The notes beneath the pieces are model-generated. The model did not search any database. It worked only from the letters and a program-made list of their open reading frames with translations, and was not told where the DNA came from. 64,000 nt of DNA from Siphonodentalium dalli (lineage: Eukaryota; Mollusca; Scaphopoda; Gadilida; Siphonodentaliidae): NCBI GenBank assembly GCA_032622095.1, contig CP136062.1:6324001-6388000 (forward strand), read 5' to 3'. The position numbers and the translations under genes are program-made. Below, in pieces: positions 9,484 through 45,281 of this stretch. Position 1 is the stretch's first letter, and each line of letters opens with the position of its first letter.

Positions 9484-10952
9484 TTAGTGTCCTGTTGAGA
9501 GAATTCTACCTTGCCGTACTCCCTGGAGTATCTTAAATGTTTGTGACAGAGAGCCTTGCCATTTGACTTTACTTGTCATGCTGGTGTATATTTCCTTTAG
9601 TATGAGCCAGTCGTGTCCAGTTATGCCATCTAAAAACAGCTTATGTAGGAGGATATCATGGTCGACTACATCGAAGGCCTTTTGTGCATCAAGGGTGGTG
9701 AAAAGTAGCTTCTTTTTTCCTATCTTCGCCTCGTTAATACATTCTGATACTAGAAGTGCAGCATTAAGGGATGAGGTTCCTTTTGTGAAGCCTTTTTGAA
9801 GTTTTGACTGCGTTGGTAGTAGGAGTTTTTCATGCCTAGTATTCAGTATATGTTCCAAAATTTTGAGGATAGTTGACGTGACGGTTATTCCTCTGTAATT
9901 CGCTGGATTGTGAGGGCAACCTTTTTTGTACACGGGTGTCAAGTGGCCTTCCTTCATTACTTCAGGAATACAGCGTGTGTGTACAATCGCATTCAGCAGT
10001 TTCGTCAGGTATGGTAAGATAACTGTTTGACAGAGTTTTAGATGCTCACTGGTGATGCCTAGGGAGTCAGCTGCTTTGTTGTTACTGAGCTTCTTCATTG
10101 CATGCCGTACCTCTTCGTCTGTTATGTTATTCATACTAGTAATGCTGGCCTGCTTGTGACATGTATATTCTATCGTTTGTAGGTCATTCCTGACACGATC
10201 AATATGTGGGTCATCGAATAGTTCATTTTCGGTCGGAGTGGCGAGAGTTTGAAAGTGCTCCTTCCATCCACTCATTATACCTTCTGTAGTTGTGAGTGTT
10301 TCTCCATTCACGTTGAGTTCAGATATTGCATGTGAGGAAGTAGATCGTTGTTGTTTGACTAGTTGAGAGAAGGTCTTTGGATTCGGTTGAGCTTCCACAA
10401 GTTTCTCAATGGCCTCTGATCGTCTTCTGGCACTCTCTTGTCGTTGTAATTTCTGCAGAGTGAATTTCGCTTGTTTCATTTCTTTGTATTCACTACTCGT
10501 TCTGTCAGGTGTTCCTGCGGTTTTCCACTTCCACCAGACTGCCTTCTCATGCTTAATAGCTGCCTTAATGCCTTCATTCCAGACTTTTGGTTTAGTTTTT
10601 AGCTTTATCTGCTCTTTATGTCCTGGAATGCTGGTCTGAGTTGCTTCGATCAGTACTGTTGTCAGATGTTTTACAGAGAGATGTAGTTGGTACTCGGTGG
10701 TAGGTTCCTCTAGAAAGTGGTGTAACTTTGAGGATACATTCTCGTTGTATAAAGCTTTGTTACAGCGATCCCATTTAGGTTTAGGTGTGATTTTGATGTC
10801 GTTTTCAACCTTCTTCGTGGATATTTGGATAGACGCACGAACTGGGATATGATCAGACGTATTCAGTGGTTCCTTGTTGTCCACTAGCCAGGCGAAAGTC
10901 AGCTTTCTGGCAGAGGGATTGCAGAATATGTAGTCAATTTCTGCTGTATCTC
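9484..10952 (-). pseudogene. LINE-A ORF2, endonuclease C-terminus and RT N-terminal half
   Basis: Minus-strand frame starting upstream of the first Met (10,884), because the coding sequence continues to 10,952. RDTAEIDYIFCNPSARK lies upstream of that Met, followed by the endonuclease motif SDHIPV (residues 10-15 counted from the Met). A basic linker follows, then the RT domain with AADSLGITSEHLK (271-283), NYRGI (329-333), AFDVVDHD (403-410, motif A) and GVRQG (455-459). It is cut at 10,952 by the large terminal-inverted-repeat element. The missing N-terminal side, reading HGGTPTFFHTNE, is found at 35,384 onward and again at 45,282 onward in the compatible frame. Confidence 0.92.
10945..10952. 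repeat. 8 bp target-site duplication, left copy
   Basis: TGTATCTC sits immediately left of the terminus GGGAGTGACTAAAACGCAG. The identical octamer lies immediately right of the inverted terminus at 35,376-35,383 and 45,274-45,281. Confidence 0.9.
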
Positions 10953-11432
10953 GGGAGTGACTAAAACGCAGAATGGGACGATGGGACGGTACGGTATGGG
11001 ACGGTATTGGGACGGTATGGGACGGTATTTGGGACGGCGCGGGACGGTATTGGGACGGTATTAGAAAACCGGCTGTTTATCAATAATACAGCGTGTAGCG
11101 GCATCAAAATGGTTATATATAGTCGGCATTAACATTGCGTACATGGAGCAACAATTTAATAGTCTCATTCGCCAACACAAAGCTCATATTACCGGCTAAA
11201 AATAGACACGACGGAAATAGGCGATTACGGTCAAACGCAGAAAGAAAATGTAAACACCAAATCACCCCATACATTCATATTTCCCTGTCCCACGGTGATA
11301 TTTTTGCATAAAATGTTAGATTAACATCTTATCGACATCACTGTAGCATTTTATTGACCATAATCAAGATGAAAACAACTTTTGTCGTCGATGGGACGGA
11401 AGCGAAATTGCAGAACGAAAATGTAAACAAAC
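10953..11432 (+). repeat. Left terminal inverted repeat, outer ~480 bp
   Basis: It matches the reverse complement of 44,794-45,273 almost base for base. Differences include an indel and a few substitutions in the GGGACGG cluster, and the ACCGG/ATCGG change near 11,211. The 35,165-35,375 copy matches only its outer 210 bp; the inner part continues at 32,571-33,347 from position 11,225 onward, so 62 bp (about 11,163-11,224) is missing from that right arm. Confidence 0.92.
10975..11065 (+). promoter_or_regulatory. Subterminal cluster of GGGACGG motifs
   Basis: GGGACGG occurs about eight times in 90 bp, spaced mostly 10-17 bp, just inside the terminus. It recurs as GGATGGGACGGTATTAG pairs in every unit of the inner array and as CCGTCCC in the right arm. 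Dense subterminal repeats are a known binding platform for transposases of several DNA-transposon groups; that role here is inference. Confidence 0.6.
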
Positions 11433-14400
11433 ACCAAATCATCCCATGCATTCACATTTCCCCGTCCCGCGGCGATATTTTTACATAAAATGTTAGATTA
11501 ACATCTTCTCGACATCATTGTAGCATTTTAATGACCACAATCAAGATTAAAACATGTTTTTATTCGCTGATGGAACTGAACGGAAGCGGTATTAAAGCGC
11601 AGAACAACCGTAGGAAATTGCAGAACGAAAATGTAAACAAACACCAAATCACCCCATGCATTCATATTTCCCCGTCCCGCGGCGATATTTTTGCATAAAA
11701 TGTTAGATTAACATCTTTTCGACATCACTGTAGCATTTTATTGACCATAATCAAGATGAAAACAACCTTTTTCGTCAATGGGACGGAAGCGAAATTGCAG
11801 AACGAAAATGTAAACAAACACCAAATCACCCCATGCATTCACATTTCCCCGTCCCGCGGCGATATTTTTACATAAAATGTTAGATTAATATCTTCTCGAC
11901 ATCATTGTAACATTTTATTGACCATAATCAAGATGAAAACATGTTTTTTTTTCGCTGATGGGACGGAAGCAAAATTGCAGAACGGGATGGGACGGTATTA
12001 GATAGGATGGGACGGTATTAGAAAACGCAGAACAGCTAAGATAGACCCCTAAACTTGCTGTTTAGCAATAATACAGCATGTAGCAGCACCAAAATGGCTC
12101 TATATGGTCATCAGTGCAGCATTTTATTGGTGATCCCATTTTATTGACCATAATCAAGATGAAAACAACTTTTTTCGTCGATGGGACGGAAGCGAAATTG
12201 CAGAACGAAAATGTAAACAAACACCAAATCACCCCATGCATTCACATTTCCCGGTCCCGCGGCGATATTTTTACATAAAATGTTAGATTAATATCTTCTC
12301 GACATCATTGTAACATTTTATTGACCATAATCAAGATGAAAACATGTTTTTTTTCGCTGATGGGACGGAAGCGAAATTGCAGAACGAAAATGTAAACAAA
12401 CACCAAATCACCCCATGCATTCACATTTCCCCGTCCCGCGGCGATATTTTTACATAAAATGTTAGATTAATATCTTCTCGACATCATTGTAACATTTTAT
12501 TGACCATAATCAAGATGAAAACATGTTTTTTTTTCGCTGATGGGACGGAAGCAAAATTGCAGAACGGGATGGGACGGTATTAGATAGGATGGGACGGTAT
12601 TAGAAAACGCAGAACAGCTAAGATAGACCCCTAAACTTGCTGTTTAGCAATAATACAGCATGTAGCAGCACCAAAATGGCTCTATATGGTCATCAGTGCA
12701 GCATTTTATTGGTGATCCCATTTTATTGACCATAATCAAGATGAAAACAACTTTTTTCGTCGATGGGACGGAAGCGAAATTGCAGAACGAAAATGTAAAC
12801 AAACACCAAATCACCCCATGCATTCACATTTCCCGGTCCCGCGGCGATATTTTTACATAAAATGTTAGATTAATATCTTCTCGACATCATTGTAACATTT
12901 TATTGACCATAATCAAGATGAAAACATGTTTTTTTTCGCTGATGGGACGGAAGCGAAATTGCAGAACGAAAATGTAAACAAACACCAAATCACCCCATGC
13001 ATTCACATTTCCCCGTCCCGCGGCGATATTTTTACATAAAATGTTAGATTAATATCTTCTCGACATCATTGTAACATTTTATTGACCATAATCAAGATCA
13101 AAACATGTTTTTTTTTCGCTGATGGGACGGAAGCAAAATTGCAGAACGGGATGGGACGGTATTAGATAGGATGGGACGGTATTAGAAAACGCAGAACAGC
13201 TAAGATAGACCCCTAAACTTGCTGTTTAGCAATAATACAGCATGTAGCAGCACCAAAATGGCTCTATATGGTCATCAGTGCAGCATTTTATTGGTGATCC
13301 CATTTTATTGACCATAATCAAGATGAAAACAACTTTTTTCGTCGATGGGACGGAAGCGAAATTGCAGAACGAAAATGTAAACAAACACCAAATCACCCCA
13401 TGCATTCACATTTCCCCGTCCCGCGGCGATATTTTTACATAAAATGTTAGATTAATATCTTCTCGACATCATTGTAACATTTTATTGACCATAATCAAGA
13501 TGAAAACATGTTTTTTTTCGCTGATGGGACGGAAGCGAAATTGCAGAACGAAAATGTAAACAAACACCAAATCACCCCATGCATTCACATTTCCCCGTCC
13601 CGCGGCGATATTTTTACATAAAATGTTAGATTAATATCTTCTCGACATCATTGTAACATTTTATTGACCATAATCAAGATCAAAACATGTTTTTTTTTCG
13701 CTGATGGGACGGAAGCAAAATTGCAGAACGGGATGGGACGGTATTAGATAGGATGGGACGGTATTAGAAAACGCAGAACAGCTAAGATAGACCCCTAAAC
13801 TTGCTGTTTAGCAATAATACAGCATGTAGCAGCACCAAAATGGCTCTATATGGTCATCAGTGCAGCATTTTATTGGTGATCCCATTTTATTGACCATAAT
13901 CAAGATGAAAACAACTTTTTTCGTCGATGGGACGGAAGCGAAATTGCAGAACGAAAATGTAAACAAACACCAAATCACCCCATGCATTCACATTTCCCGG
14001 TCCCGCGGCGATATTTTTACATAAAATGTTAGATTAATATCTTCTCGACATCATTGTAACATTTTATTGACCATAATCAAGATGAAAACATGTTTTTTTT
14101 CGCTGATGGGACGGAAGCGAAATTGCAGAACGAAAATGTAAACAAACACCAAATCACCCCATGCATTCACATTTCCCCGTCCCGCGGCGATATTTTTACA
14201 TAAAATGTTAGATTAACATCTTCTTGACATCATTGTAACATTTTAATGACCATAATCAAGATGAAAACATGTTTGTTTTCGCTGATGGGACGGAAGGGAA
14301 ATTGCAGAACGGGATGGGACGGTATTAGATAGGATGGGACGGTATTAGAAAACGCAGAACATCTAAGATAGACCCCTAAACTTGCTGTTTAGCAATAATA

Positions 14401-17400
14401 CAGCATGTAGCAGCACCAAAATGGCTCTATATGGTCATCAGTGCAGCATTTTATTGGTGATCCCATTTTATTGACCATAATCAAGATGAAAACAACTTTT
14501 TTCGTCAATGGGACGGAAGCGAAATTGCAGAACGAAAATGTAAACAAACACAAAATCACCCCATGCATTCACATTTCACCATCCCGCGGCGATATTTTTA
14601 CATAAAATGTTAGATTAACATCTTCTCGACATCATTGTAACATTTTAATGACCATAATCAAGATGAAAACATGTTTTTTTTCGCTGATGGGACGGAAGCG
14701 AAATTGCAGAACGGGATGGGACGGTATTAGATAGGATGGGACGGTATTAGAAAACGCAGAACAGCTAAGATAGACCCATAAACTTGCTGTTTAGCAATAA
14801 TACAGCATGTAGCAGCACCAAAATGGCTCTATATGGTCATCAGTGCAGCATTTTATTGGTGATCCCATTTTATTGACCATAATCAAGATGAAAACATGTT
14901 TTTTTTCGCTGATGGGACGGAAGCGAAATTGCAGAACGAAAATGTAAACAAACACCAAATCACCCCATGCATTCACATTTCCCCGTCCCGCGGCGATATT
15001 CTTACATAAAGTGTTAGATTAATATCTTCTCGACATCATTGTAACATTTTATTGACCATAATCAAGATGAAAACATGTTTTTTTTCGCTGATGGGACGGA
15101 AGCAAAATTGCAGAACGGGATGGGACGGTATTAGATAGGATGGGACGGTATTAGAAAACGCAGAACAGCTAAGATAGACCCCTAAACTTGCTGTTTAGCA
15201 ATAATACAGCATGTAGCAGCACCAAAATGGCTCTATATGGTCATCAGTGCAGCATTTTATTGGTGATCCCATTTTATTGACCATAATCAAGATGAAAACA
15301 ACTTTTTTCGTCGATGGGACGGAAGCGAAATTGCAGAACGAAAATGTAAACAAACACCAAATCACCCCATGCATTCACATTTCCCCGTCCCGCGGCGATA
15401 TTTTTACATAAAATGTTAGATTAATATCTTCTCGACATCATTGTAACATTTTATTGACCATAATCAAGATGAAAACATGTTTTTTTTTCGCTGATGGGAC
15501 GGAAGCAAAATTGCAGAACGGGATGGGACGGTATTAGATAGGATGGGACGGTATTAGAAAACGCAGAACAGCTAAGATAGACCCCTAAACTTGCTGTTTA
15601 GCAATAATACAGCATGTAGCAGCACCAAAATGGCTCTATATGGTCATCAGTGCAGCATTTTATTGGTGATCCCATTTTATTGACCATAATCAAGATGAAA
15701 ACAACTTTTTTCGTCGATGGGACGGAAGCGAAATTGCAGAACGAAAATGTAAACAAACACCAAATCACCCCATGCATTCACATTTCCCGGTCCCGCGGCG
15801 ATATTTTTACATAAAATGTTAGATTAATATCTTCTCGACATCATTGTAACATTTTATTGACCATAATCAAGATGAAAACATGTTTTTTTTCGCTGATGGG
15901 ACGGAAGCGAAATTGCAGAACGAAAATGTAAACAAACACCAAATCACCCCATGCATTCACATTTCCCCGTCCCGCGGCGATATTTTTACATAAAATGTTA
16001 GATTAATATCTTCTCGACATCATTGTAACATTTTATTGACCATAATCAAGATGAAAACATGTTTTTTTTTCGCTGATGGGACGGAAGCAAAATTGCAGAA
16101 CGGGATGGGATGGTATTAGATAGGATGGGACGGTATTAGAAAACGCAGAACAGCTAAGATAGACCCCTAAACTTGCTGTTTAGCAATAATACAGCATGTA
16201 GCAGCACCAAAATGGCTCTATATGGTCATCAGTGCAGCATTTTATTGGTGATCCCATTTTATTGACCATAATCAAGATGAAAACAACTTTTTTCGTCGAT
16301 GGGACGGAAGCGAAATTGCAGAACGAAAATGTAAACAAACACCAAATCACCCCATGCATTCACATTTCCCGGTCCCGCGGCGATATTTTTACATAAAATG
16401 TTAGATTAATATCTTCTCGACATCATTGTAACATTTTATTGACCATAATCAAGATGAAAACATGTTTTTTTTCGCTGATGGGACGGAAGCGAAATTGCAG
16501 AACGAAAATGTAAACAAACACCAAATCACCCCATGCATTCACATTTCCCCGTCCCGCGGCGATATTTTTACATAAAATGTTAGATTAACATCTTCTTGAC
16601 ATCATTGTAACATTTTAATGACCATAATCAAGATGAAAACATGTTTGTTTTCGCTGATGGGACGGAAGGGAAATTGCAGAACGGGATGGGACGGTATTAG
16701 ATAGGATGGGACGGTATTAGAAAACGCAGAACATCTAAGATAGACCCCTAAACTTGCTGTTTAGCAATAATACAGCATGTAGCAGCACCAAAATGGCTCT
16801 ATATGGTCATCAGTGCAGCATTTTATTGGTGATCCCATTTTATTGACCATAATCAAGATGAAAACAACTTTTTTCGTCAATGGGACGGAAGCGAAATTGC
16901 AGAACGAAAATGTAAACAAACACAAAATCACCCCATGCATTCACATTTCACCATCCCGCGGCGATATTTTTACATAAAATGTTAGATTAACATCTTCTCG
17001 ACATCATTGTAACATTTTAATGACCATAATCAAGATGAAAACATGTTTTTTTTCGCTGATGGGACGGAAGCGAAATTGCAGAACGGGATGGGACGGTATT
17101 AGATAGGATGGGACGGTATTAGAAAACGCAGAACAGCTAAGATAGACCCATAAACTTGCTGTTTAGCAATAATACAGCATGTAGCAGCACCAAAATGGCT
17201 CTATATGGTCATCAGTGCAGCATTTTATTGGTGATCCCATTTTATTGACCATAATCAAGATGAAAACATGTTTTTTTTCGCTGATGGGACGGAAGCGAAA
17301 TTGCAGAACGAAAATGTAAACAAACACCAAATCACCCCATGCATTCACATTTCCCCGTCCCGCGGCGATATTCTTACATAAAGTGTTAGATTAATATCTT

Positions 17401-19658
17401 CTCGACATCATTGTAACATTTTATTGACCATAATCAAGATGAAAACATGTTTTTTTTCGCTGATGGGACGGAAGCAAAATTGCAGAACGGGATGGGACGG
17501 TATTAGATAGGATGGGACGGTATTAGAAAACGCAGAACAGCTAAGATAGACCCCTAAACTTGCTGTTTAGCAATAATACAGCATGTAGCAGCACCAAAAT
17601 GGCTCTATATGGTCATCAGTGCAGCATTTTATTGGTGATCCCATTTTATTGACCATAATCAAGATGAAAACAACTTTTTTCGTCGATGGGACGGAAGCGA
17701 AATTGCAGAACGAAAATGTAAACAAACACCAAATCACCCAATGCATTCACATTTCCCCGTCCCGCGGCGATATTTTTACATAAAATGTTAGATTAATATC
17801 TTCTGGACATCATTGTAACATTTTATTGACCATAATCAATATGAAAACATGTTTTTTTTCGCTGATGGGACGGAAGCGAAATTGCAGAACGAAAATGTAA
17901 ACAAACACCAAATCACCCCATGCATTCACATTTCCCCGTCCCGCGGCGATATTTTTACATAAAATGTTAGATTAACATCTTCTTGACATCATTGTAACAT
18001 TTTAATGACCATAATCAAGATGAAAACATGTTTGTTTTCGCTGATGGGACGGAAGCGAAATTGCAGAACGGGATGGGACGGTATTAGATAGGATGGGACG
18101 GTATTAGAAAACGCAGAACAGCTAAGATAGACCCCTAAACTTGCTGTTTAGCAATAATACAGCATGTAGCAGCACCAAAATGGCTCTATATGGTCATCAG
18201 TGCTGCATTTTATTGGTGATCCCATGTTATTGACCATAATCAAGATGAAAACAACTCTTTTCGTCGATGGGACGGAAGCGAAATTGCAGAACGAAAATGT
18301 AAACAAACACCAAATCACCCCATGCATTCACATTTCCCCGTCCCGCGGCGATATTTTTACATAAAATGTTAGATTAATATCTTCTCGACATCATTGTAAC
18401 ATTTTATTGACCATAATCAAGATGAAAACATGTTTTTTTTCGCTGATGGGACGGAAGCGAAATTGCAGAACGGGATGGGACGGTATTAGATAGGATGGGA
18501 CGATATTAGAAAACGCAGAACAGCTAAGATAGACCCCTAAACTTGCTGTTTAGCAATAATACAGCATGTAGCAGCACCAAAATGGCTCTATATGGTCATC
18601 AGTGCAGCATTTTATTGGTGATCCCATTTTATTGACCATAATCAAGATGAAAACATGTTTTTTTTCGCTGATGGGACGGAAGCGAAATTGCAGAACGAAA
18701 ATGTAAACAAACACCAAATCACCCCATGCATTCACATTTCCCCGTCCCGCGGCGATATTTTTGCATAAACTGTTAGATTAACATCTTTTGACAACACTGA
18801 AGCATTTTAATGACCATAATCAAGGTTAAAACAATTTTTTTTTGGTCGATGGGACGGCACCTTTGGATATTGCAGAACGGGATGGGACGTTATTATATAG
18901 GATGGGACGGTATTAGAAACCGCAGGACAGCTAAGATAGACCCCTAAACTTGCTGTTTAGCAATAATACAGCATGTATAGCAGCACCAAAATGGCTCTAT
19001 ATGGTCATCTGTGCAGCATTTTACTTGTGATCCCATTTTATTGACCATAATCAAGATGAAAACAACTTTTTTCGTCGATGGGACGGAAGCGAAATTGCAG
19101 AACGAAAATGTAAACAAACACCAAATCACCCCATGCATTCACATTTCCCCGTCCCGCGGCGATATTTTTACATAAAATGTTAGATTAACATCTTCTCGAC
19201 ATCATTGTAACATTTTAATGACCATAATCAAGATTAAAACATGTTTTTTTTCGCTGATGGGACGAAACCTTTGGAAATTGCAGAACGGGATGGGACGGTA
19301 TTAGATAGGATGGGACGGTATTAGAAAACGCAGAACAGCTAAGATAGACCCCTAAACTTGCTGTTTATCAATAATACAGCATGTAGCAGCACCAATATGG
19401 CTCTGTATGGTCATCAGTGCAGCATTTTATTGGTGATCCCATTTTATTGACCATAATTGGGATGGGACGGTATTTGAAAACGCAGAACAGCTAACATCTT
19501 TTCGACGTCATGACCATTAAAGATTAAAACAACTTTTTTCGCTGACGGGATAGCAGCGGCAAAACGCAGAACAACCTTTGGAAATTGCAGAACTAGATGG
19601 GACGGTATTAGATGGGATGGGACGGTATTACATGGGTTGAGACGGTGTTAAAGAACTC
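11240..19658 (+). repeat. Nested tandem array forming the left arm (180 / 402-582 / 2,372 bp)
   Basis: The basic ~180 bp monomer carries GCAGAACGAAAATGTAAACA, CCCGTCCCGCGGCGATA and GACCATAATCAAGATGAAAA. The landmark CTTGCTGTTTAGC falls at about 12,054, 12,636, 13,218, 13,800, 14,381, 14,783, 15,187, 15,590, 16,172, 16,753, 17,155, 17,559, 18,140, 18,542, 18,949 and 19,357. Spacings are therefore 581-582 or 402-408 bp: one landmark block plus two or one monomers. A five-unit block of 2,372 bp is itself repeated: private variants at 14,360, 14,578 and 14,998 reappear at 16,732, 16,950 and 17,370. The small open frames are array artefacts. Confidence 0.93.
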
Positions 19659-20386: not shown

Positions 20387-20387
20387 T

Positions 20388-20540
20388 ATCCAGGGGGGGG
20401 GCGGAAAAAAACTGCGGGACACAACGTACCGGGGGGGGTACATAGGCGTAAACAAATTACACATAAATTTTGTCCTTATTCATTTACGGGGGGGGGGGGG
20501 GGGGGGGGGGGGGTTGTCGGAAAAAATTTGCATGTAATTT
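20388..20540 (+). repeat. Two poly-G/poly-A modules including a 26-base G run
   Basis: G runs at about 20,391-20,400, 20,431-20,439 and 20,488-20,513 (26 G). Two of them are followed by CGGAAAAAAACTGC or TCGGAAAAAATT. Strong G-quadruplex potential, and such runs are also prone to assembly error. Confidence 0.8.
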
Positions 20541-24081: not shown

Positions 24082-24089
24082 CATTTTTT

Positions 24090-25060: not shown

Positions 25061-25064
25061 TACT

Positions 25065-33347: not shown

Positions 33348-35164
33348 ACGTAATCCGACGTTTGTTTGTCACAATTGTGAAACCATATTTTCGAGGCTTA
33401 TTACCTTGTGGAAACAACGCTCTTTATTGTTGTTGTTTTCCCAAACAGTAAATAATTCATGTTCAAATGCGTCTGTGTACGTATTCTTGCCCTGTGTTTC
33501 ATACACGACCGATTATACTGAAGAGTCTGACTAACTCAAATAAACACGACGCTCTGAATTATATCATGGTCCATTAATGCTGATAGATAACTGGTTATCT
33601 GAGAGTGTTGTCCTCTTGCTTTGACCGATGTTTATAGAGTTTTCACTGCCTGAGAGTGTAAGGAATAGATACATCCTTTTTGGATTAGATTAAGGGGTAA
33701 TTGATATAATGAAAATAATTTGCTTTTGAGTAAGCATTGAATTTGATTAAGGTGGTAGCTATTATAATATAATATTTTGCTTATGGTTATACATTGGATT
33801 TGATTAAGGGGTAATTGATATAATGACAATAATTTGCTTTTGAGCATGCATTGGACTTGATTAAGGTGGTAGTTAGTATAATAGAATATTGTGCTTAGGG
33901 ATTAAGGGGTAATTGATATAATGGAAATAATTTGCTTTTGAGTATGCATTTAATTTGATTAAGGTGGTAGCTATTATAATATAATATTTTGCTTATGGTT
34001 ATACACTGGATTTGATTAAGGGGTAATTGATATAATGGAAATAATTTGCTTTTGAGTAGGCATTGGATTTGATTAAGGTGGTATTTATTATAATATAATA
34101 TTTTACTTATGGTTATATATTGGATTTGATTAAGGGGTAATTGATATAATGAAAATAATTTGCTTTCGAGTATGCATTGGATTTGATTAAGCTGGTAGTT
34201 ATGCTTTATTATTATTAAGGGGGTGGACTTTGATAAATGTATTTGTTATTATTGGGGTGGGTAGATGAAAAGTTTTAGTTTTTTTGTTATGCCGTGATCA
34301 TATTTTGACGCCCAGAGGTGAATCAGTTATGTCCCGTTATATAAATAACGTAATGAGTTGCTCCCACGATTTTCATGGGGTCGGCTGAGTTTGGATTTCC
34401 GGGAGACTGCCGAGCTGGGATTTCTTAGGGATCCTTACTCAGTTAGCCCTTTATACCACTGGATAACACTTAATAATTTAATATGTATTGAATGATTTCA
34501 TTTATTAATATTTAGACTCCACCTCACTATATTGTCACGGCATATCAAAATAGAAATAATCATCAAATATATATAGACAATAAATCGCATCAATTTTTTA
34601 GTTTTGTTTGTGTTATCTCCCTTTTTCATCAGCCTGGGTATATCCTTGTTAGGTTCCATCAGTGGTAGTCGTCTCTATCTTGCCATGTGAGCAAGACCCT
34701 TTGCTTTAGCTGCTCGTTTCTCTGTTATTAATGGATTGAACCTACATTTCTAAATCCGCTAATTATATTTATAAAATAATCTTAACTTATTCCGAGTGGG
34801 GTCATAGTACAAGTTTCGACTTGGACTTGTGACACTACTGGGGAATAGGTCACAATTTGACTGCATTTTTTTTGTTTTATCTAAAGTTAAGGTATAAGTT
34901 GATCTATATTAAATGACACGTAGTTCCCTTTTTTATTTTTCATTCTTGCACAACAAGTATAATTAGTCTTGACTACATTTTGTTCACCACACATAACAAG
35001 TTTTGAGCTTATAACTGACTCCAAGTTATTCACAATTATGGAGTTCCATCGCTTAGCGCGTCAATGGTAACAATGAACCCCATTCCATTCTTGATTAACG
35101 GTCCTCCCATTAAAAGAGAAATAAAACTGTAGTTTCTATATAACCCTAGAGTACAATTCGCTAC
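33348..35164. other. 1.8 kb insertion interrupting the right arm
   Basis: It replaces 62 bp of arm sequence that is intact at 44,794-45,273. Ends are sharp (after TTTGACCGTAA, before ACTATTAAATTGT). It contains the 114 bp repeat below, then unique AT-rich sequence (34,250-35,164) with no recognisable gene or terminal repeats. Confidence 0.65.
33685..34250. repeat. 114 bp tandem repeat, ~5 units
   Basis: TAAGGGGTAATTGATATAAT starts at 33,691, 33,805, 33,903, 34,017 and 34,131: spacing 114, 98, 114, 114. Each unit is bipartite, with TTGATTAAGGTGGTAG about 50 bp after the start. Confidence 0.9.
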
Positions 35165-35375
35165 ACTATTAAATTGTTGCTCCATGTACGCAATGTTAAT
35201 GCCGACTATATATAACCATTTTGATGCCGCTACACGCTGTATTATTGATAAACAGTCGGTTTTCTAATACCGTCCCAATACCGTCCCGCGCCGTCGCAAA
35301 TACCGTCCCATACCGTCCCAATACCGTCCCATACCGTCCCGTCCCATCGTCCCATTCTGCGTTTTAGTCACTCCC
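35165..35375 (-). repeat. Right terminal inverted repeat, outer 211 bp (copy 1)
   Basis: Reverse complement of 10,953-11,163, ending TTTTAGTCACTCCC, with the CCGTCCC cluster just inside. Followed by the octamer TGTATCTC. Confidence 0.92.
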
Positions 35376-35383
35376 TGTATCTC
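35376..35383. repeat. 8 bp target-site duplication, right copy
   Basis: TGTATCTC directly after the terminus, identical to 10,945-10,952. Confidence 0.88.
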
Positions 35384-35560
35384 TTTCATTTGTGTGAAAA
35401 AATGTGGGCGTTCCTCCGTGTTGTGTAAACAGGTCCTTTTTATTATAGAACTTTATTAAGTTTACTTTATTAAGTACTATGTTACGTACACGGCTACAAA
35501 ATTAATTTATGAACACAGTTTTGTCAAAGGTGTCATTACCTGCGACCAGAAATTATTTAG
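35376..35560 (-). pseudogene. LINE-A endonuclease fragment beyond the insertion (copy 1)
   Basis: On the minus strand the codons leading into the octamer read KVNLIKFYNKKDLF, TQHGGTPTFF, HTNE and then R-D-T using the duplicated bases. This is the conserved late part of an APE endonuclease, just upstream of the DYI motif at 10,9xx. Further upstream the frame has a stop (near 35,508) and a weak LVAG..D match to the GDFN motif near 35,545. The far end is not defined. Confidence 0.75.
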
Positions 35561-35869
35561 ACAGTACGGAAGCGATCGAATTCTCGCATTGTTGACTTTT
35601 CGAATGATAGAACACTGACACACGGCGATGGTAAAATGGTTTTCACGGTGATAATCCTGATGAGAAAGTATGGAATAATACAATAAGTCTGCCGTACACA
35701 ACACTGACTACAGTACAGTACCGTTTATTAAATATAATTAATATAAGTTATAACAGTTTGTAACTTTGTTTTCAGTTTTGAAATGAAACTTGTCAGAGTA
35801 AACTAAAACTGGTATTATTATTAACCATTCTGCAATACCAAATGGCCTCACCTTCACACTACTAGTATG

Positions 35870-36196
35870 GCTGAAGGGGTCACTCTCACCAAAAAAGTGC
35901 TGTTCAAAGGGTACACAGGGTTTGAAAATGTGCTGAAGGGTACACAGGGTTTGTGATCGATCGGCACGAACACCACTACTTAAATTGTGTTTATGAAAGT
36001 CTGGCGCCCATTAGCAGTTTGTTTTCAGTACATTTTAATATTCATTGGAACGTAAACAATTATTCTCTAACAGAAATAATGGCAGATACGAAAACTGAAT
36101 GTCCTTTAGAACGACATTTCAAACCATGTGTACCCTTCAGCACATTTTGAAAATCCTGTGTACCCTTCAGCACTTTTTTTGGTGAGAGTGCCCTTT
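35870..36196. mobile_element. MITE-1, truncated copy
   Basis: Same sequence as the complete element at 45,768-46,098 but cut two bases before its right terminus, with no right-hand target duplication. Confidence 0.75.
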
Positions 36197-36199
36197 AGT

Positions 36200-36830
36200 G
36201 TAAACATATTTTTATTTCCAAATCCAAACATAATACACATAATACACAAATGACATAAATATACAACATATAAGAGATAATGTATGGAAATGAGGATCAG
36301 ACAACAAGCCCGATGGCTTATATGAAGTCTTCTCCTCTTTGGCGACATGCCCCTTCCCCAATAAGTGAGGGAGGGGTATCGATCAGACGGGAAATAATAG
36401 AAATAATATTTTTTAAAGGAGAAGTAACTAAGTTTAAGTTGGGATGGACACAGCGGAAGATAGTGTTAGGGATAGCAGGAGGCAGAGAGAGAGAGAAGAG
36501 AGAGAGAGAGAGAATGAGAGGGAGAGTGAGAAAGTAGAGGGGACAGAGTTTTCAATAATTTAGTTGCTGCGTGATGAAAATTATGCACGTAGTAATATGC
36601 ATGCGTCAGGCTCCATGGGAGGGGGGTCAATCGCAATGGCCAATTCCTATTTCAATGGGGTTCACTGTGAATATCGCTGCATTCTTCATGTAGAATCATT
36701 TCACGTATTATACAGGATAGTGACAAGTAAAGTAACTTACAAAATAATCGTTATCGGAAGACAGTTAGTACTACATATATAATGGAGAACATCGTGCTGC
36801 CGCATAACGCGGCCGGAATCCAAAGCAATT
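36200..36830. other. No gene seen; GA microsatellite at 36,484-36,513
   Basis: Unique sequence with a (GA)n tract, followed by the presumed 3' UTR of LINE-B near 36,780-36,845. The LINE 3' end is not recognisable. Confidence 0.45.
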
Positions 36831-36845
36831 TGTTACCCATACAGA

Positions 36846-37118
36846 TCATGGAAATCTTTTTGTTCTCATAATATATGTCTGTACTGCATTAAATATTTGT
36901 TTGTTTTCGCGAAGACTAAGCTCTCTTGACCCCCGCATTAGTGTATTCTCAGATAAGGCAACATTTGGTAGGGAGTCATATAGTTCTCTTCTTGGCTCTT
37001 GATAAAATGTACATTCAAAGAGATAGTGGTAAGTTGTCTCAAATTCCCCACATAGACAGAAGGGGGAAATTTGTACATGGTTATCTGTCAGGTCACCACT
37101 TAGGTGGCTGCAGTTCAA
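36846..37118 (-). pseudogene. LINE-B ORF2, C-terminal zinc knuckle
   Basis: Carries CLCGEFETTYHYLFEC, the C-x-C..H-x4-C cluster that ends many LINE ORF2 proteins, and a normal stop. Its frame differs by one from the upstream segment. The correct frame can be followed leftward through SHILHTRLRLNCSHLSGD to about 37,230, where the shift lies. Confidence 0.85.
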
Positions 37119-37198
37119 TCTTAACCGGGTATGGAGGATATGAGATTTACGACATTTACTATGATAAAAATAGGCAGGTGGACGTATATTGGCACTGT

Positions 37199-37411
37199 TC
37201 AGTTCCTTTTTGAAGTCTTCGATTGTACTGCTGCTCTTTGTAGTTTCTGACAGTTTGTAATTGCAGATGGTAAGAAAGAATCCATATAATAGTCATAATT
37301 AATATTCGAGGGTAGTCTTATATGTTCAAATCTTAAGTTATATCTGGAATTATTTGCCTGAATTGGTCGTATATAATTTCTTAAAATTGATGGAGCAGTT
37401 CCTCGTATCAT
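37199..37411 (-). pseudogene. LINE-B ORF2, post-RT segment
   Basis: Directly in frame with the 710-codon segment, separated by one TAA (37,412-37,414) within HKLCQFF-stop-MIRGTAPSILR. This resembles the post-RT 'HK..FYK...G..P..L' region of CR1/L2-like proteins. Coding homology ends near 37,230 at a frameshift. Confidence 0.8.
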
Positions 37412-39544
37412 TTAAAAAAATTGGCATAGCTTGTGTTTTCTACGGCGTGAAGAGAGGAGTTCCCAGCCAGTCTCTGACAAAAGGCACGCGTTACTCGTAC
37501 TGATGGTTGCACCTGTTACTATTCGGGCCATTTCATACTGAACCTTTTCAATGTCATCACTAAGATAATCAGGGCAGTTATCCCAAACAGGGGAGGCATA
37601 TTCCAGTATTGGTCGGATAAATGTATAATGTATTTTTTCAAGCGTTACTCTGCTTAGCTTGTATCTGTGTTTACGTACTCGATTTACTCGACTCCATGCT
37701 TTGTCAAGCATAGATCTGATGTGGATACCCCAAGAGCCCATGTTGTCGAAAGTAAGTCCCAGATGTTTATGGCTGTCAACCTCAACAATTGTCGCGGTTC
37801 CCATATTCAAATGTGGATGATATACTGGTGTTTCTTTCCTGGAGATTAAGAGAGATTCCGTTTTCAGGGGATTGAATTTTACAAGCCATTCTGATGCCCA
37901 ACACATGAGAGTTTCGAGGTCATCGTTGATTAGTTTTGCGGCCATGGTGGGGTCTTCGATAGTAAGAAATAGAGAAGTGTCATCAGCAAATAGACGAATG
38001 TTGCACCGTATATTTTCGGTTATATCATTAATATAAATTAAAAACAGAAGTGGGCCTAATACCGAGCCTTGCGGCACACCTGCTGTTACATCTTGTAGTT
38101 CCGAACGTGTGCCGTCTATGACAACCTGTTGTTGTCTACATTCTAGATACGATTTCATCAAGTTATACAAGTTTCCTCTTATACCAATTTTTGTCAGTTT
38201 GTTCAAGAGGCCACGGTGCCAGACTTTATCGAATGCTTTACTTATGTCACAGCATATACACCGGACCTCTTTTCCGTCGTCTAATGATCGACATATATTG
38301 TCATATATTTCGGTAAGTTGAAAAACTGTTGAATCGTTGCGCATGAAACCAGCTTGATAAAATGATAGGAGTTTGTTTTCATCAAGAAATTCCCATAGAT
38401 ATTTATAAATACATTTTTCATAGACCTTTGAGACGCAACTTAGTAGAGAAATTGGTCGGTAATTTGATATAAGACCGGGATCACCACTCTTAAATATAGG
38501 TGTAACATGTGAACGCTTCCACTGGTGTGGGTAGTAATTGTTTTCGGTAAATGTTCTAAAATAGAATTCAAGAGGTTCACAGAGCGAGGAGGCACAACTT
38601 TTCAAAACTCTCGGACTTATTCCGTCGGGCCCACTTGACTTAGATATTTTAAGACTGTTTAACGCTTTGTAAATGTCAGGGGCTGTGATTTTTATATCGC
38701 TTAATGTGGATATGGAGTTATCCGGTTCAAGGACTGGTAGGCGTGTCCCGATGTCATCAACTGATGAAATTTTACAAAAATACGAATTGAAAGCATTTGC
38801 TTTTTCAGTTGGTGAGATCAGGAAGTCGCCGTTGGTGTTCAAGGGGGGTATTGATCTATCACTGGTAGCAAATACTATTTTTTGGAGGGTTTTCCACCAG
38901 GAAGACTGGTCGTGTGATGGGCTATTCAATGTGTTCTCATTCTTGGTGTCATAATCACGTTTGCTTTTTCTAATAGCCGATGTAGTTTCATTACGTTTAG
39001 ATCTGAAGTTTGCCCATGTTTGTGGTGTGTTTTTCCTTTTAGCTATCTTATGTAATCGATTTCGTTGCCTCATCAGTTTCCGTACATTATACGTAAGCCA
39101 TTGGGGACTACCTTTCCGGATAATAACTATCTTATTGGGGATATTGTCACTGCATACCTTTTGAATTTTTGCAGTCAAGTTATCTGCATGAGCTGAAAGT
39201 TCAAATGGTATATTATCATCATAGTTCCAGCTCAAGAAGTCTTCGTTCATGGTATCGAAGTCAGCCAGATTATAATTCCAGATACGTCTAGTGAGAGTTG
39301 TAGCCGATTTATTTTTCAAAAGTTTTATCTGAGCAACGACCGGACAGTGATACCTAATTTTGTTGTCGAATATGTTGCCAAGAACACAAGGGGAATCAAC
39401 AAGGTCAGGGTTGCTAGTCATGAGCAAGTCGAGAATGGATGAGGAATTTTCAGTAAAATGCGTTTTATCAGTGACCAGTTGGGTCAGACCTCGTTCGCTA
39501 CATATGCCGTTTATTTTACCATTAGTTTTCATTGAAATCTCCAC
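37412..39544 (-). pseudogene. LINE-B ORF2, endonuclease end plus complete reverse transcriptase
   Basis: A 710-residue frame. Residues 10-75 are the endonuclease C-terminus (ILDLLMTSNPDLV; RYHCPV in place of the usual SDHxPV). RT landmarks follow in order: SGPDGISPRVLK (304-315), NYRPISLL (361-368), QAGFMRNDST (397-406), ISKAFDKVWH (434-443, motif A), GVPQGSVLGP (489-498, motif B), RLFADDTSLF (517-526, catalytic FADD) and NPLKTESLLIS (558-568). It joins the upstream endonuclease segment by a frameshift near 39,530, inside the GDFNEN motif. LINE enzymes of this type nick the target with the APE domain and prime reverse transcription there. The RT core itself is unbroken. Confidence 0.95.
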
Positions 39545-40226
39545 CTATTATGACATCCAGGTCGCTATCGCGCGCAAGAGAAATGTTATCATTAATTTTT
39601 GTCCACAGGCTTGCGGGGGAGTTGGGAGGGCGATAAAAACATCCTACAAGACAACGTTTTGTGTTAATTGTAACCTCTATCCAGATATTTTCTACTTCGT
39701 CACTGTCAAGTTCATCGCATATTTTGAATGGTATAGTGTCACGAACGTAAATACACACACCCCCTCCTGTTCTGCCATCTATCCTGTCTTTGCGGGCAGG
39801 ATCATGGTAGCCAGGAAGATGGATTTCTGAATCCGGGATAGAATGATCGAGCCATGATTCGGTTAATAGACATATGTCGTATTCCCCACTTGATGTTTCT
39901 GCTGCAAGTATATCTACTTTATTTCTGATACTCTGTGTATTCAGTACAAGTACCGAGTGATTGTGTTGTTCGGTTGAGGGGCCTGGGTTAGTCTCCACGT
40001 CTCCTGCCAGGATCAAAAGAGCCTTTGCTAAAGATACCGCTAATACTGTTAGAAATGTCACGCATGTGAAGAGGAATACAGTTGTGTGTGCCATCGCAAA
40101 TTTAGTGTTCAACTTCGTCTTTTTATCATCGGAATTTGGAGAATTAGATAGTTTCTGGCCTGCCAAGATATGTTTGAGAGCGCAGAATTGTTCCATCGGG
40201 AAGAAAATGAAAACCAACAGTGTCAA
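39522..40226 (-). pseudogene. LINE-B ORF2 N-terminus: hydrophobic leader, 2A motif, APE endonuclease
   Basis: A 234-residue frame from Met 40,226; an internal Met (MAHTT, residue ~45) is an alternative start. Residues 48-74 are strongly hydrophobic (FLFTCVTFLTVLAVSLAK). GDVETNPGP follows at residues 75-83, matching the 2A consensus D-x-E-x-N-P-G-P. The APE endonuclease begins at once: LNTQSIRNK, LLTESWLD, GGGVCIYVR, CFYRPPNSP and GGDFNEN at 228-234, where the frame is lost. 2A sequences at the ORF2 N-terminus are documented in several APE-type LINEs of marine invertebrates, where ribosomes skip the final G-P bond. A hydrophobic stretch before 2A could act as a signal sequence (inference). Confidence 0.93.
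39978..40004 (-). other. 2A-type ribosome-skipping motif
   Basis: Codons for GDVETNPGP. All invariant 2A residues (D, E, N, P, G, P) are present. Predicted skip site between Gly 82 and Pro 83 of the 40,226 frame, releasing the leader from the endonuclease-RT protein. Confidence 0.85.
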
Positions 40227-40229
40227 TGT

Positions 40230-43200
40230 TCAGGCAGTTATAAGATCCAGTCCACGTAAGCGTAACATGATATAAAACAAGCATGTTTTTGATTGTTTCA
40301 CACAGAGACGCCCCCTCCCTGACAGCCTGACAGCAAGATTGTGAAATGCACCGATTCTTGCCCTGTGTAACATTATGTCACTCATTATCAAAAGCCATAT
40401 CAAAATCCTGAGAGCAGTTCTGTTTTGGGCATCCTCGGTGCACAGTAACAAACATATTAATAGAGCATACTCTGGTAATACATGTAAATGTATACATATC
40501 AGTGGTGTGTTTTAAATTTGTTTTCAACCCAGTCTGTTTGCCAGGTAGGTGTGAGTAGGTAGGAGAAAGAGAACAGAGTAGAACAGAAGGGCAGTTGAGT
40601 ATAGTGAATGAGAGTATGAGATAGCAATAGTGAGTGGCAATAGAATGTATACCAATCGTGGTTGTGCAGGCCGGTGGGTTTTTTGAGTCAACCAAACAGG
40701 GGTTCATCTTAAGTTTGATAATCTTAGGGTGTGTTTTGAGCTCGGAGCTCTTCATCACGAAAATGTATATGCAGCCGAAATGACTATAGGAGTTATGTTT
40801 CTAAAGTGAGGGATAGAGATATTCATGTCGTGAACGGTTTTAAGGGGAGCGTGGATCGACGAGGTAAGTCAGGAGTAGATGGGTGTGTGGAATTATAGAA
40901 TGCAATAGGATTGCCTGCATACTTGAGAGAGCCTATCACATACATATGCTACAAATTATTTACAAAACTCAGCAAGGGATACAATTATAAATATAAGCAT
41001 TATAATAATATAATTATTATATAATACATAATTAACTATTTTTAACTACGGTGCCTGGGCAGTTTGAATCATTCATGCTAGTGACCAGAGTCTTAGCGCT
41101 GCAATTATGTGGACACACAGTTAGATTTAAGTGCGATCGATTCATAAGACTAACAGGAAGACAGACCACTACACTTACATATAATTACATAAACACACAC
41201 AGACATATATATGCACATACGCATGCACAAAGACATACGTACATACATATACGTGTGTGTTCCCAGATAACTAAATGTAGTTTTTGATACGCACGATTAT
41301 GTTTTCACAAGAGGTGAGCAGCGTGATTTGAAATATCTGAGAAACGGCGTTTCGAAAATTATAGATGCTACCCATTGGAGAAGACGATTCTGAATTTGTG
41401 GTGACATGCCAGTCCTTCATATCAATGCATGTGCACATGCAATTTGATGATGAACACACATTATATGCCTCTATATACCGGTACACGATCCGTGTGTGCT
41501 CCCTTTTGTTATCAGAGATCAGGGCGACCATACCGGTCGGTTATAAGGCAATCCTTAATACCGCGATATGTGTGTTGCCGCCCCAACCTGCCAATGTGTA
41601 CGGTTTGTGGATAAACACAAGCGCGATTATATACCGGTACATGAGTAATGTGTGATCGCTTCAATTGGTGAATGGGTGCGGATTTAAGGTATATTCCGTG
41701 TGTTTACCATTGTACACAAGGTATATACATGATTATCTAGATGGACATTTAAGAAAAGTGGAGCATGCGCATGCATGTATAAATATCGGAGTCTATGTAA
41801 ACCAACACGCGGGTATGTTTGCTATGAAACGGTCAGAAAGGGTTGAGATATCTCAAATGGAATTAAATAGTTCATAGCCAGTACGGAACGGACAGACGGA
41901 CGGACGGTGTGATGGTATAAGTATGTGCCATACATATCATGTTATGGGGGTATAAATACTGTCGATGAATAATATATGTATACAATGGCTACCATGCATA
42001 ACGATATGACCAGGATAAACAAAACGAATGCACACTCAAATAATAAGACAATATATGCATAGATGCTGGTTGAGTATATATACCTGTATAAAAGTGCGCG
42101 CATATATACGCCCTTCAGTGAATGCCAAATGTTATCGCATATGGGCATGTATTCGTGTCACATAACCTCGGTCTACCAACGCCGTTGTTGGTTTAACATA
42201 ATTACCCAGTCGGACTGACCGCTTGACATGGAAATGATTGTCTCGTGTGAGTTTGACCTGAAAAAGTCGTGATTATACGTCCAATCTACTGGTTGCGTGC
42301 TGGTCGGTTTCATTTCATAATGGTGATGGCAAATTGTGCTTCGTGGTATGAGAATTGTTGTATGTATGCTGAACAAACTGATGTAGTAGACTTTGTGCAT
42401 ACATACTAGTGGATTGAGCACATTCATGTGTGTAATTATGAACGTGATTAATCATTATGCAGTCGTCTCATGTGCATGTACAAGTCAGCTAACATCCGTG
42501 ATACACTCGTTTGTCTGGGTATTTGTGCAAAATTGGATTATTCCATAAGATTTCACCATACAGAGGTCATATTGTAGATTGTCTGGACATTTGTGCAAGA
42601 TTGGATTACTTCATGAGACCATGGATGTCCGTGTGTGTGATATTGTTCATATATGGAGAGTTGACAAGCCTGTTTTCCATAAATGCGTCAAGTCGGAAAA
42701 CTGGACATATTATTAAAAAGAGATGTCCGTTTATCGAATTTAGAGGAAGTAATATGAAGTACACAAAGATTATTTCATGAGATTTCGGCATATATACACA
42801 AGATTCGGTGATAGGTGAGTTTATATGTGCGAATTTCGTGTTTGCTTATGTCCCGCCATGTATAGGATTATATACACATATTAATATATAATTATAATAC
42901 TTAATAGATTGTTTTAAGTCTGGGGGTGTGTCAGATGTTCCAGTTACGGATGGATGTACACTTAAAAGAATAACCGAGCAATAGCTTAGTATGGAAAATA
43001 TTTGAAAATGCTTGCATTCGGCGTATATATAGTTGGGTTTGCTTGGCGGATCTATTGGCTAAAGTAGAAAACATTGAGAGCCGGTGCATTGTACACCTAT
43101 TAAACCATCGCTCATAATAAATGCTGATTATATTCTGTATTTTGAAAAGCAGATTTGCGGTGAGTCCATTCAAAACGGACACCTGACCCCTTCCCCATTG

Positions 43201-43270
43201 ACGTTGTCACTATGTACATTCAGATCGTAAGTTGCATTGATCTGACAGTCCTGTATACTATATGAATACA
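40230..43270. other. Non-coding stretch between LINE-B ORF2 and ORF1
   Basis: AT-rich with no recognisable protein. It contains dinucleotide-like DNA near 41,190-41,260, a GGACGGACGG patch at 41,889-41,907, repeated ATACCGGTAC blocks (41,477 and 41,628) and a ~68 bp duplication (TTTGTGCAAAATTGGATTA at 42,522 and its variant at 42,590). No terminal repeats were found to define an insertion. Confidence 0.45.
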
Positions 43271-43274
43271 TCAT

Positions 43275-44374
43275 CTAGCCACGTAGTTTATTGTCAAGTT
43301 CGTCCATTGCATGTGGCGTGGTTATTCTGATCGGCTTCTCATTTTCTTTAAGTCTGATGAGAATGGCTCCATCAATAGTCCACGTTTCATGGATCAGCTC
43401 GTCTTTACGGAGCTGCCGTGCCCTTTTGTAGATTGCGGCGCGGGTTCTAGTGAGATCCTCATTTATGAAAACCCTTTGGTTGAGGTAGGGTAACTTCAGA
43501 TTTTTACTATCAGTGCGTCTCCCATATAGTTCTCGCCTGATTTTATAGGAGGGAAGCCTGAAGATTATTTGGCGTGGTTGGTTGGGTTTTGGAGCATTGT
43601 TTATCCCTACAGTTTTTGGTTCAGTTGAATCAGAATTGGGTTTTCCTTGTTTCGGGCCAACCCTGTGACTTCGGTAAACATCATAATTACCGAGCGGTAT
43701 ACCTAACTCGTTTGCAACGTCAAGGACAATGTTATCAGTGTTTTCGCCTGATTTTTCTGGAACACCTGATATTCTAAGATTCGTTCTGCGGCCATATTGT
43801 TGTAGGTCGTCGAGTTCGACCTTCACTCCGCGAATGTCGTATTGACGCGCTTCCCTCTCCGCTTTCAGTTCAAGTTTGAGTTCGGATAATTCATGCCTAA
43901 TGTCAGCTATGTCGCTTTCATACTTGTCTCTGGGCACGAAGGCATCTTTAGTTATTTTTGCGACTTCTGACCGCGCCATTTTTGTGATAACGCGCTCAAG
44001 CATGCCTTCCATCATTAAACTAAAGGAACTCTGGACACGATCACTCCCGAGAGCCTTTATTAGGCTTGATTCAAAGTATATGTCTGGCGCATAATTGTCA
44101 TTTTCCATTTCTGATGAGTTTGAATGGTTTAGGCTTTCGTCAACCAGGGAGTCCTGATAGACAGGTCTGGGCTTTTTGTTGTCATTAGATTCGGAGGGTG
44201 AGAACGGAGATTGTCGGTTCCGCTTTAAGTCGGCTGGCTTTTGTCGAATATCAGGAATGAATGTTATTGGTTACTCGCGCCCACTGAGTCAGGTTGTTCT
44301 GCTTCGTTCGGTGTGGAGCTGTCTAAGGGGGCGATAGTTGCTTCGTCGAGTCCCTGTAATTGCAACTCACTCAT
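43275..44374 (-). pseudogene. LINE-B ORF1 (coiled coil plus RRM-like RNA-binding protein)
   Basis: An open frame of 277 codons from an internal Met (44,108) to the stop at 43,275. Residues ~62-102 are heptad-like and highly charged (DIRHELSELKLELKAERE), then YGRRTNLRISGVPE (105-118), the hallmark entry to the RRM-like domain of LINE ORF1 proteins. RQIIFRLPSYKIRREL and a basic C-terminal VFINEDLTRTRAA follow. Coding sense continues upstream of 44,108 (SPSESNDNKKPRPVYQD) to a frameshift near 44,260, then MSELQLQGLDEATIAPL starting at 44,374. Family members coat LINE RNA as trimers and are nucleic-acid chaperones. No cysteine knuckle is seen. Confidence 0.85.
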
Positions 44375-44793
44375 ATTGAGTAGAGTACAGATTTACGAAC
44401 AATTGTCAATAAAGCGATTTGTATGCACGCGCTAAATGCGTAATCGGTTAAATAGTTTTGCGAGGAATGTCAACAGTCGAGATCCACGTATTGTAATATA
44501 TAGTCGAAATTAGAATGGTCTCACCGGATTGTCTTTGTTTGGGTGTTGTCTCTATGGAAATCAAAATGGCCGTTCTTCTTGAAACAAAGAAAACACAAAG
44601 TCGAGAATACAGCATCAAGAAATCAGTTGTACACTTAGATGACACATTGAGAGCGATTTATATTGACACACGAATCCAACTGCACATATAATTATCCCTC
44701 GTAAGGCCTTTTAAATTGGTATTTTATCAATTTTCCCCATCGGTCGACTCCGCGTAAAAATATTTATCTTCCCGTCATCGTGACGTCACTTCC
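44375..44793. other. Presumed 5' flank of LINE-B; no gene
   Basis: No recognisable frame. It may contain the LINE-B 5' UTR. It ends in GTGACGTCACTTCCG at 44,794, where terminal-repeat homology begins abruptly. Confidence 0.4.
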
Positions 44794-45273
44794 GTTTGTT
44801 TACATTTTCGTTCTGCAATTTCGCTTCCGTCCCATCGACGAAAAAAGTTGTTTTCATCTTGATTATGGTCAATAAAATGCTACAGTGATGTCGAAAAGAT
44901 GTTAATCTAACATTTTATGCAAAAATATCACCGTGGGACAGGGAAATATGAATGTATGGGGTGATTTGGTGTTTACATTTTCGTTCTGCGTTTGACCGTA
45001 ATCGCCTATTTCCGTCGTGTCTATTTTTAGCCGATAATATGAGCTTTGTGTTGGCGAATGAGACTATTAAATTGTTGCTCCATGTACGCAATGTTAATGC
45101 CGACTATATATAACCATTTTGATGCCGCTACACGCTGTATTATTGATAAACAGTCGGTTTTCTAATACCGTCCCAATACCGTCCCGCGCCGTGTCAAATA
45201 CCGTCCCATACCGTCCCAATACCGTCCCATACCGTCCCGTCCCATCGTCCCATTCTGCGTTTTAGTCACTCCC
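44794..45273 (-). repeat. Right terminal inverted repeat, second and uninterrupted copy (480 bp)
   Basis: Reverse complement of 10,953-11,432 without the 1.8 kb interruption seen at 33,348-35,164. Its inner ~200 bp is identical to 33,150-33,347. It ends TTTTAGTCACTCCC at 45,273. Confidence 0.93.
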
Positions 45274-45281
45274 TGTATCTC
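45274..45281. repeat. 8 bp target-site duplication beside the second right end
   Basis: TGTATCTC, identical to 10,945-10,952 and 35,376-35,383. Confidence 0.85.

Follow-up and report, generated by a model that had tools for sequence, protein, structure and literature searches.

Results

Features of the locus

The window, a stretch of 64,000 nucleotides, holds an interrupted LINE (LINE-A), a foldback-type TIR element lying within it and, on the far side of that element, a second LINE (LINE-B) that is full length (Table 1). The 3′ part of LINE-A has an RVT_1 match and a weak zf-RVT match, and its two in-frame stops are visible in the alignment to homologues. LINE-B carries the motif GDVETNPGP, which we take to be 2A-like.

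Table 1. Coordinates of features in the window
Feature	Position	Strand	Remarks
LINE-A, 3′ part of EN-RT frame, two in-frame stops	8110–10952	-	ORFs, RVT_1, homologues
Target duplication TGTATCTC, left copy	10945–10952		
Present foldback-type TIR element, nested DNA counted	10953–35375		24,423 bp
Left terminal 19-mer	10953–10971	+	
Left arm, tandem arrays	10953–20390	+	units of 20, about 179, 402 and 582 bp
Nested 10,572-bp insertion	20391–30962		own 8-bp duplication; short G-rich tips
Right arm, array units	30971–33347	-	
Direct repeat, first copy	33140–36196		33140–33347 plus 35165–36196, solo LTR between
Solo LTR	33348–35164		two copies flank an LTR retrotransposon in the duplicate locus
Right end of element	35165–35375	-	includes terminal 19-mer, 35357–35375
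Target duplication TGTATCTC, right copy	35376–35383		
LINE-A EN frame upstream of insertion	35376–35450	-	restored frame; 5′ limit approximate
Short inverted-repeat, MITE-like flank element entered by LINE-B	35853–36196		inverted match
LINE-B, full length, EN-RT type	36197–44793	-	8,597 bp; domains, both ends
Direct repeat, second copy	44794–46094		right end 45255–45273 (-), octamer 45274–45281

Termini, octamers and the restored LINE-A frame

The 19-bp terminus GGGAGTGACTAAAACGCAG is exact at the three positions claimed in the original prediction (10,953 and, inverted, 35,375 and 45,273), and the octamer TGTATCTC adjoins all three; by shuffling, a mean of 0.02 matches is expected with up to 3 mismatches allowed. 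Joining the two flanks through one octamer keeps a single minus-strand frame, ..HGGTPTFFHTNERDTAEIDYIF.., with the junction sequence HTNERDTAEIDYI. In blastx, a single HSP crosses the joined site, reaching at least some 10 codons past it in either direction, in 31 of the 120 homologues listed (310 proteins were found, and the other 89 of the 120 are not sorted by whether they include this part of the endonuclease). The prediction of a DNA element with TIRs that entered a LINE endonuclease frame and duplicated 8 bp of target is borne out by the termini, the octamers and the rejoined frame, which related LINEs, the only kind aligned here, span in those 31 cases.

A family of termini across the genome

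The prediction had also asked for these termini elsewhere in the assembly, and they are there: the exact 19-mer has 105 genomic copies versus 0 for the reversed control, and 230 versus 4 when up to 2 mismatches are allowed. Facing termini were examined in 24 pairs. Identical flanking octamers, ten different ones in all, were found in 11 pairs; a further two pairs were one base apart, 11 had no matching octamers, and octamers matched across pairs in 0 of 552 comparisons. The target duplication was 8 bp in all 11 matched pairs, as judged by comparison of octamers, with the ninth base not tabulated. Inverted termini with short target duplications, the trait of the TIR order, are present at several independent sites, and these termini define a family of transposons that duplicate 8 bp of target. 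The smallest octamer-matched copy is 204 bp long and the largest 24.5 kb, or 33.9 kb if the segmental duplicate of the window locus is counted. Duplication of an end together with its flank recurs at other copies (11 groups among 83 termini); one of them, C4:148, has three termini and one octamer, and its end duplication is a plain tandem of 9.8 kb at 99.85–100% identity. The exact 19-mer was not found in viral_contigs or genome_contigs, from which the window's own genome may be missing, and no Rfam match reached gathering scores.

Foldback arms and nested insertions

The element has a foldback architecture, its arms being inverted tandem arrays that are long and unequal in repeat number. Motifs of the left arm are plus-oriented as far as 19658, and one minus-oriented unit lies at 20129–20390. 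The number of left-arm marker units is variable, 17 in the window and 9 in a second copy of the locus, at least 51 kb long and 2.2 Mb away; in the right arm only the terminal marker unit is present, with none internal.

Between the arms lies an insertion with a target duplication of its own (GAAATATC, 20383–20390 and 30963–30970) and with short, imperfect tips. When the site is rejoined without this core, 32 of 123 HSPs cross it and an array unit is restored. We had considered a giant element with cargo genes; this was rejected, the core being a nested insertion, and relevant domain matches among the 17 of 88 window ORFs scanned were confined to LINE-A and LINE-B. A solo LTR interrupts the right arm, of which 61 bp are missing at that point in the window. 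The duplicate locus has, at the same place, two direct LTRs enclosing protease, RT, RNase H and integrase, which identifies an LTR retrotransposon as the source of 33348–35164. With the 10.6-kb insertion and the solo LTR subtracted, the element's own DNA would come to about 12 kb. The size that set it apart from a typical MITE in the prediction is accounted for by array arms together with nested insertions; it is not that of a single element.

LINE-B and the second right end

A 1.3-kb (1,301-bp) direct repeat adjoins both ends of LINE-B and includes 0.8 kb of flank past the element's right end. These ends are LINE-B's own: the 3′ end is common to all four matches reaching that point, and five near-identical copies start at most 5 bases from the 5′ junction. 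The MITE-like element entered by LINE-B shows its inverted match in the region 35872–35953/36196–36120. The arrangement of LINE-B and repeat is identical in the duplicate locus. The end at 45,273 is part of this later repeat and not an alternative terminus, and the extent of the insertion is 10953–35375, which resolves the earlier ambiguity of 24–34 kb. The predicted insertion stands, at 24,423 bp, while its reading as one unit does not: about half of it is nested DNA, and the outer end lies in the LINE-B repeat.

Transposase and superfamily

As the prediction had noted, no transposase is visible in the window, none being found among the 17 ORFs scanned. Neither a DDE-type transposase nor an autonomous copy was found in the ORFs scanned, which cover a minority of the large copies. 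A BED-finger-like ORF, seen by eye in a complete 3.8-kb copy (L049), was not counted as the family's transposase because it has no Pfam match and lies among other repeats. The nearest of 150 scored MULE transposase matches (813 candidates) is at least 100 kb from the 100 listed termini. The tips of the family begin GGG; those of hAT elements begin CA or TA. With 5′-GG tips and 8-bp duplications both present, the termini resemble those of Merlin.

Discussion

Jumping DNA elements whose arms are very long and repetitive are already known, and the element at this locus is one of them. We consider the following history very probable. A non-autonomous foldback-type TIR transposon of about 12 kb, with array arms and probably mobilised by a transposase in trans, would have entered the endonuclease frame of LINE-A, duplicating 8 bp; its movement would have been of the cut-and-paste type, and the arrays are putative repeated transposase-binding sites. 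A 10.6-kb element would then have entered its middle with an 8-bp duplication of its own. A full-length LINE-B would have inserted 0.8 kb downstream, with a 1.3-kb target duplication that took in the element's right end, and an LTR retrotransposon would have inserted into the right arm, of which the window copy retains only a solo LTR. The stretch of at least 51 kb is present a second time, 2.2 Mb away; of the two copies, that in the window has more left-arm units. We place the LTR insertion after the 1.3-kb repeat, yet in the duplicate locus the two LTRs (15 mismatches in 1,823) are no less diverged than the repeat (5 and 8 mismatches in 1,032). Also weighing against this history are the 11 facing pairs with unmatched octamers and the two that are one base apart, the failure to find a transposase or autonomous copy in the ORFs scanned, and the short, imperfect tips of the nested core.

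Other accounts of the locus deserve weighing. That termini, octamers and frame should agree by chance, which the prediction had already argued against, is negligible in view of the shuffles, the restored frame, the 105 termini and the ten different matched octamers elsewhere. A single giant element of 34.3 kb (10953–45273), moving whole with LINE-B and an internal copy of the right end, would account for the terminus and octamer at 45273, and three termini with a single octamer are also seen at C4:148; we nevertheless regard such an element as very improbable and reject it, since the repeat meets each of LINE-B's own ends and holds 0.8 kb of flank, which a moving element would not be expected to bring along twice.

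The 1.3-kb repeat itself is most simply the duplication produced by LINE-B insertion. A different origin might hold because duplications of end plus flank occur elsewhere in the family, one of them the plain tandem at C4:148: the repeat could have arisen by ordinary tandem duplication, or be a false copy produced when two haplotypes were assembled, with LINE-B not its cause. We consider this unlikely, as the repeat boundaries coincide with LINE-B's own ends and the duplicate locus is arranged alike.

In the TU elements of sea urchins, foldback arms composed of tandem repeats likewise go with duplications of 8 bp. Tetris, a foldback element of Drosophila virilis, is in its published description (PMC4079207) similar in its long, internally repetitive inverted arms and variable middle, and in having complete copies without ORFs and no autonomous copy found; its target duplications are 8–10 bp, compared with 8 bp in every matched pair here, and it differs in sequence, in host and in its smaller copies. 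Tm1, a Mutator/Phantom foldback family of root-knot nematodes, shares composite inverted repeats of variable length and copies from MITE-like to large, some with nested insertions, but its duplications are mostly of 9 bp, within the 8–10 bp also seen in Tetris, and its MULE transposase is known in the account cited (PMC3169594), whereas duplications here are 8 bp and scored MULE matches stay at the distance given above. Galileo, a P-superfamily foldback element of Drosophila, likewise has arm tandem repeats that vary in number, and that bind its transposase, and chimeric copies without matching duplications; unlike the present family, it has 7-bp duplications and a known transposase, as these sources describe it (PMC3573991, PMC3688188). 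Merlin elements share the 5′-GG tips, have 8- or 9-bp duplications and, in some members, internal tandem repeats; they are not called foldback in the cited text, where the term has 0 occurrences (PMC8101967), while the arms here are foldback, and the likeness to these carriers of an IS1595-type transposase is one of tips, duplications and tandem repeats.

A tentative and somewhat doubtful reading is that, in a mollusc-like animal, a transposon of the Merlin superfamily gave rise to a foldback family, and that a LINE made a 1.3-kb germline target duplication at this locus. It would combine GGG tips and duplications of 8 bp with arms in which tip-like motifs have multiplied into putative transposase-binding arrays; with such arrays in the arms, copies with about 12 kb of their own DNA could still move.

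The value of this nested locus is that rejoined frames and array units, together with direct repeats, make its steps legible. It also shows, for an invertebrate with a large genome, foldback elements that duplicate 8 bp: matched copies span 0.2 to 24 kb, ends are often duplicated, and the arm arrays are not equally long in the two copies of the locus. A single LINE insertion sitting where two direct copies meet has a parallel in LINE-1-made tandem duplications of human tumours; those described in PMC7058536 are somatic and extend up to 22.6 Mb, whereas the present one lies in a reference genome, measures 1.3 kb and involves a full-length LINE-B. As LINE-B's own ends bound the repeat, long LINE-made germline duplications are testable at this locus.

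Insertion into the LINE-A frame

The window covers C2:6,324,001-6,388,000 in an assembly totalling 2.23 Gb and 9 contigs. The termini of the foldback-type transposon and the octamers flanking them are present where the original prediction placed them, and the frame of LINE-A, the interrupted retrotransposon, is restored as claimed: deleting 10953-35383 (element plus one octamer) leaves it unbroken through HGGTPTFFHTNERDTAEIDYIF. Of the 120 listed LINE-A homologues, 31 give a single blastx alignment that spans the junction and extends at least about 10 codons to either side of it; the frame has two in-frame stops elsewhere. The top homologue among the listed proteins is 47% identical; those named come from the bivalves Pinctada, Mytilus and Pecten and from bins of the bivalve-symbiotic bacteria Candidatus Thiodiazotropha and Sedimenticola. 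The host is probably a mollusc. An insertion of the foldback family at a nested locus, of a kind already known, is well supported. The size and the alternative right end originally proposed do not stand, the apparent size and the second end both stemming from later events at this nested locus.

Features of the locus (window positions)
Feature	Coordinates	Description
Left-arm array units		20, about 179 and 402 bp, plus 582-bp spacing
Core (nested insertion)	20391-30962	GAAATATC at both flanks
Solo LTR	33348-35164	
LINE-B	36197-44793	between two copies of 1.3-kb direct repeat
Tandem array	48188-50994	37-bp unit, about 76 copies
Tandem repeat	57321-62774	~1.8-kb unit, three in tandem, 99.5-99.7% identical

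Foldback architecture

The architecture of the element is foldback. Five mapped array motifs occur on the plus strand only in 10953-19658 and on the minus strand only in 31037-35375; a few minus-strand hits at 20131-20357 fall where the left part ends internally. The left end matches the end at 45273 in inverted orientation over 480 bp (98.3%) and the element's own right end at 35375 over 211 bp (98.6%); the left arm has 20 occurrences of the inner part of the tip, AAAACGCAGAA, and the right arm has 10 (≤1 mismatch, tips counted). By eye, a complete 2,030-bp copy at another locus, L047 (TTCAGCTA), consists of arms and little else. Binding of arm repeats by the transposase is described for Galileo (PMC3688188), and by analogy we infer that the arm repeats here are putative transposase-binding sites.

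None of the ORFs scanned showed a transposase. The genome is rich in MULE domains (813 candidates, 150 of them scored), and the nearest of the scored matches lies 100 kb from any of 100 listed termini. The features described for Merlin include 5'-GG tips and 8- or 9-bp duplications (PMC8101967).

The family in the genome

Genome-wide, exact copies of the 19-mer terminus number 51 forward and 54 reverse (reversed-pattern control, 0 and 0), rising to 116 and 114 with ≤2 mismatches (control, 1 and 3). From 100 listed of the 105 exact termini, 24 facing pairs, inverted and ≤34 kb apart, were built. A search for termini elsewhere with other octamers, as originally suggested, bore out the expectation: the outer octamers are identical in 11 of the 24 pairs, representing 10 different octamers because the segmental duplicate at C2:4.13M has the window's TGTATCTC, and cross pairs gave 0 matches in 552 (two window/duplicate combinations left out). 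The remaining pairs differ at one base (2 pairs) or by two to seven bases (11 pairs). Matched copies measure 204, 1512, 2030, 3794, 4147, 9730, 17008 and 18264 bp, the three largest being the window copy (24423 bp), the C4:148 copy measured from the inner of its two left ends (24500 bp) and the duplicate (33893 bp).

An outer inverted repeat, GACGCTAGAGGTCTCTGTCG, is common to ten termini, namely both ends of 4 of the 11 pairs that do not match plus two others, and it looks as though a longer inverted repeat carries the element inside. These termini lie at C9:96.56M, C9:99.81M, C9:103.40M, C5:177.30M, C3:106.74M and C4:117.91M, the repeat being inverted around the four facing pairs. Facing array arms are also seen on C1 (58.99M, 101.50M, 164.93M, 166.49M, 178.99M and 263.34M), where few exact 19-mer tips are listed; these arms probably belong to additional members of the family whose tips have changed.

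Nested insertions and the second right end

The duplicate locus lies at C2:4.12-4.19M and aligns with window positions 7184 to 58739 or further (98.9-99.7% in long blocks), the octamer, core, LINE-B and 1.3-kb repeat being common to both. It has 9 left-arm marker units versus 17 in the window; array length therefore changed after the two copies parted. The core there has the same GAAATATC duplication. In the window, the core's tips are short and G-rich, and its joined empty site aligns without gaps to other array units at ~80% over 147-152 bp (best alignments listed), with ≥20 bases crossing the junction in 32 of 123 HSPs. The solo LTR is so called because in the duplicate locus a pair of copies brackets protease, RT, RNase H and integrase domains. 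Without core and solo LTR, the element is about 12.0 kb, a figure that ignores the 61 bp absent next to the LTR.

The second right end lies in 44794-46094, a second copy of 33140-33347 (all 208 bp identical) plus 35165-36196 (1,032 bp, 5 mismatches); where the solo LTR sits, the first copy lacks 61 bp of this sequence. Within the loci examined, all four matches reaching the LINE-B 3' end (loci L062, L040 and, twice, L041) share the same last base. In the 5'-junction search (40 scored of 447 candidates; junction at 100/101), five genomic copies, 98-100% identical, start at query bases 96, 97, 101, 103 and 104, and most listed array copies end at base 100. LINE-B is therefore full length and adjoins the repeat at both ends, and the simplest reading is that one LINE-B insertion duplicated 1.3 kb of target; tandem duplications made by LINE-1 are on record (PMC7058536). 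An LTR retrotransposon would have entered the first repeat copy afterwards, an order based on the second copy having an intact arm without the LTR.

Some observations speak against this reading, and the repeat could have a cause other than LINE-B. In the duplicate locus, the divergence of the LTR pair (15 mismatches and 3 gaps in 1,823 columns) is not below that of the repeat (8 mismatches in 1,032), and other copies also have duplicated ends with flanks, in 11 groups totalling 33 of 83 termini, two of these groups being the window locus together with its duplicate and a third the GACGCTAGAGGTCTCTGTCG group of ten. The duplication at C4:148 is a plain tandem one. At least five genomic copies of LINE-B have 5' ends 98-100% identical, so LINE-B was recently active.

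Family ends duplicated with flank are frequent among the 83 termini, in inverted order too (C4:177.57/177.58M), and may be assembly artefacts. One independent copy, at C4:148030001-148100000 (L038-L044; octamer ACTAGTGT), has its left end and 8.5 kb of flank duplicated in tandem, with a 9.84-kb unit 99.85-100% identical.
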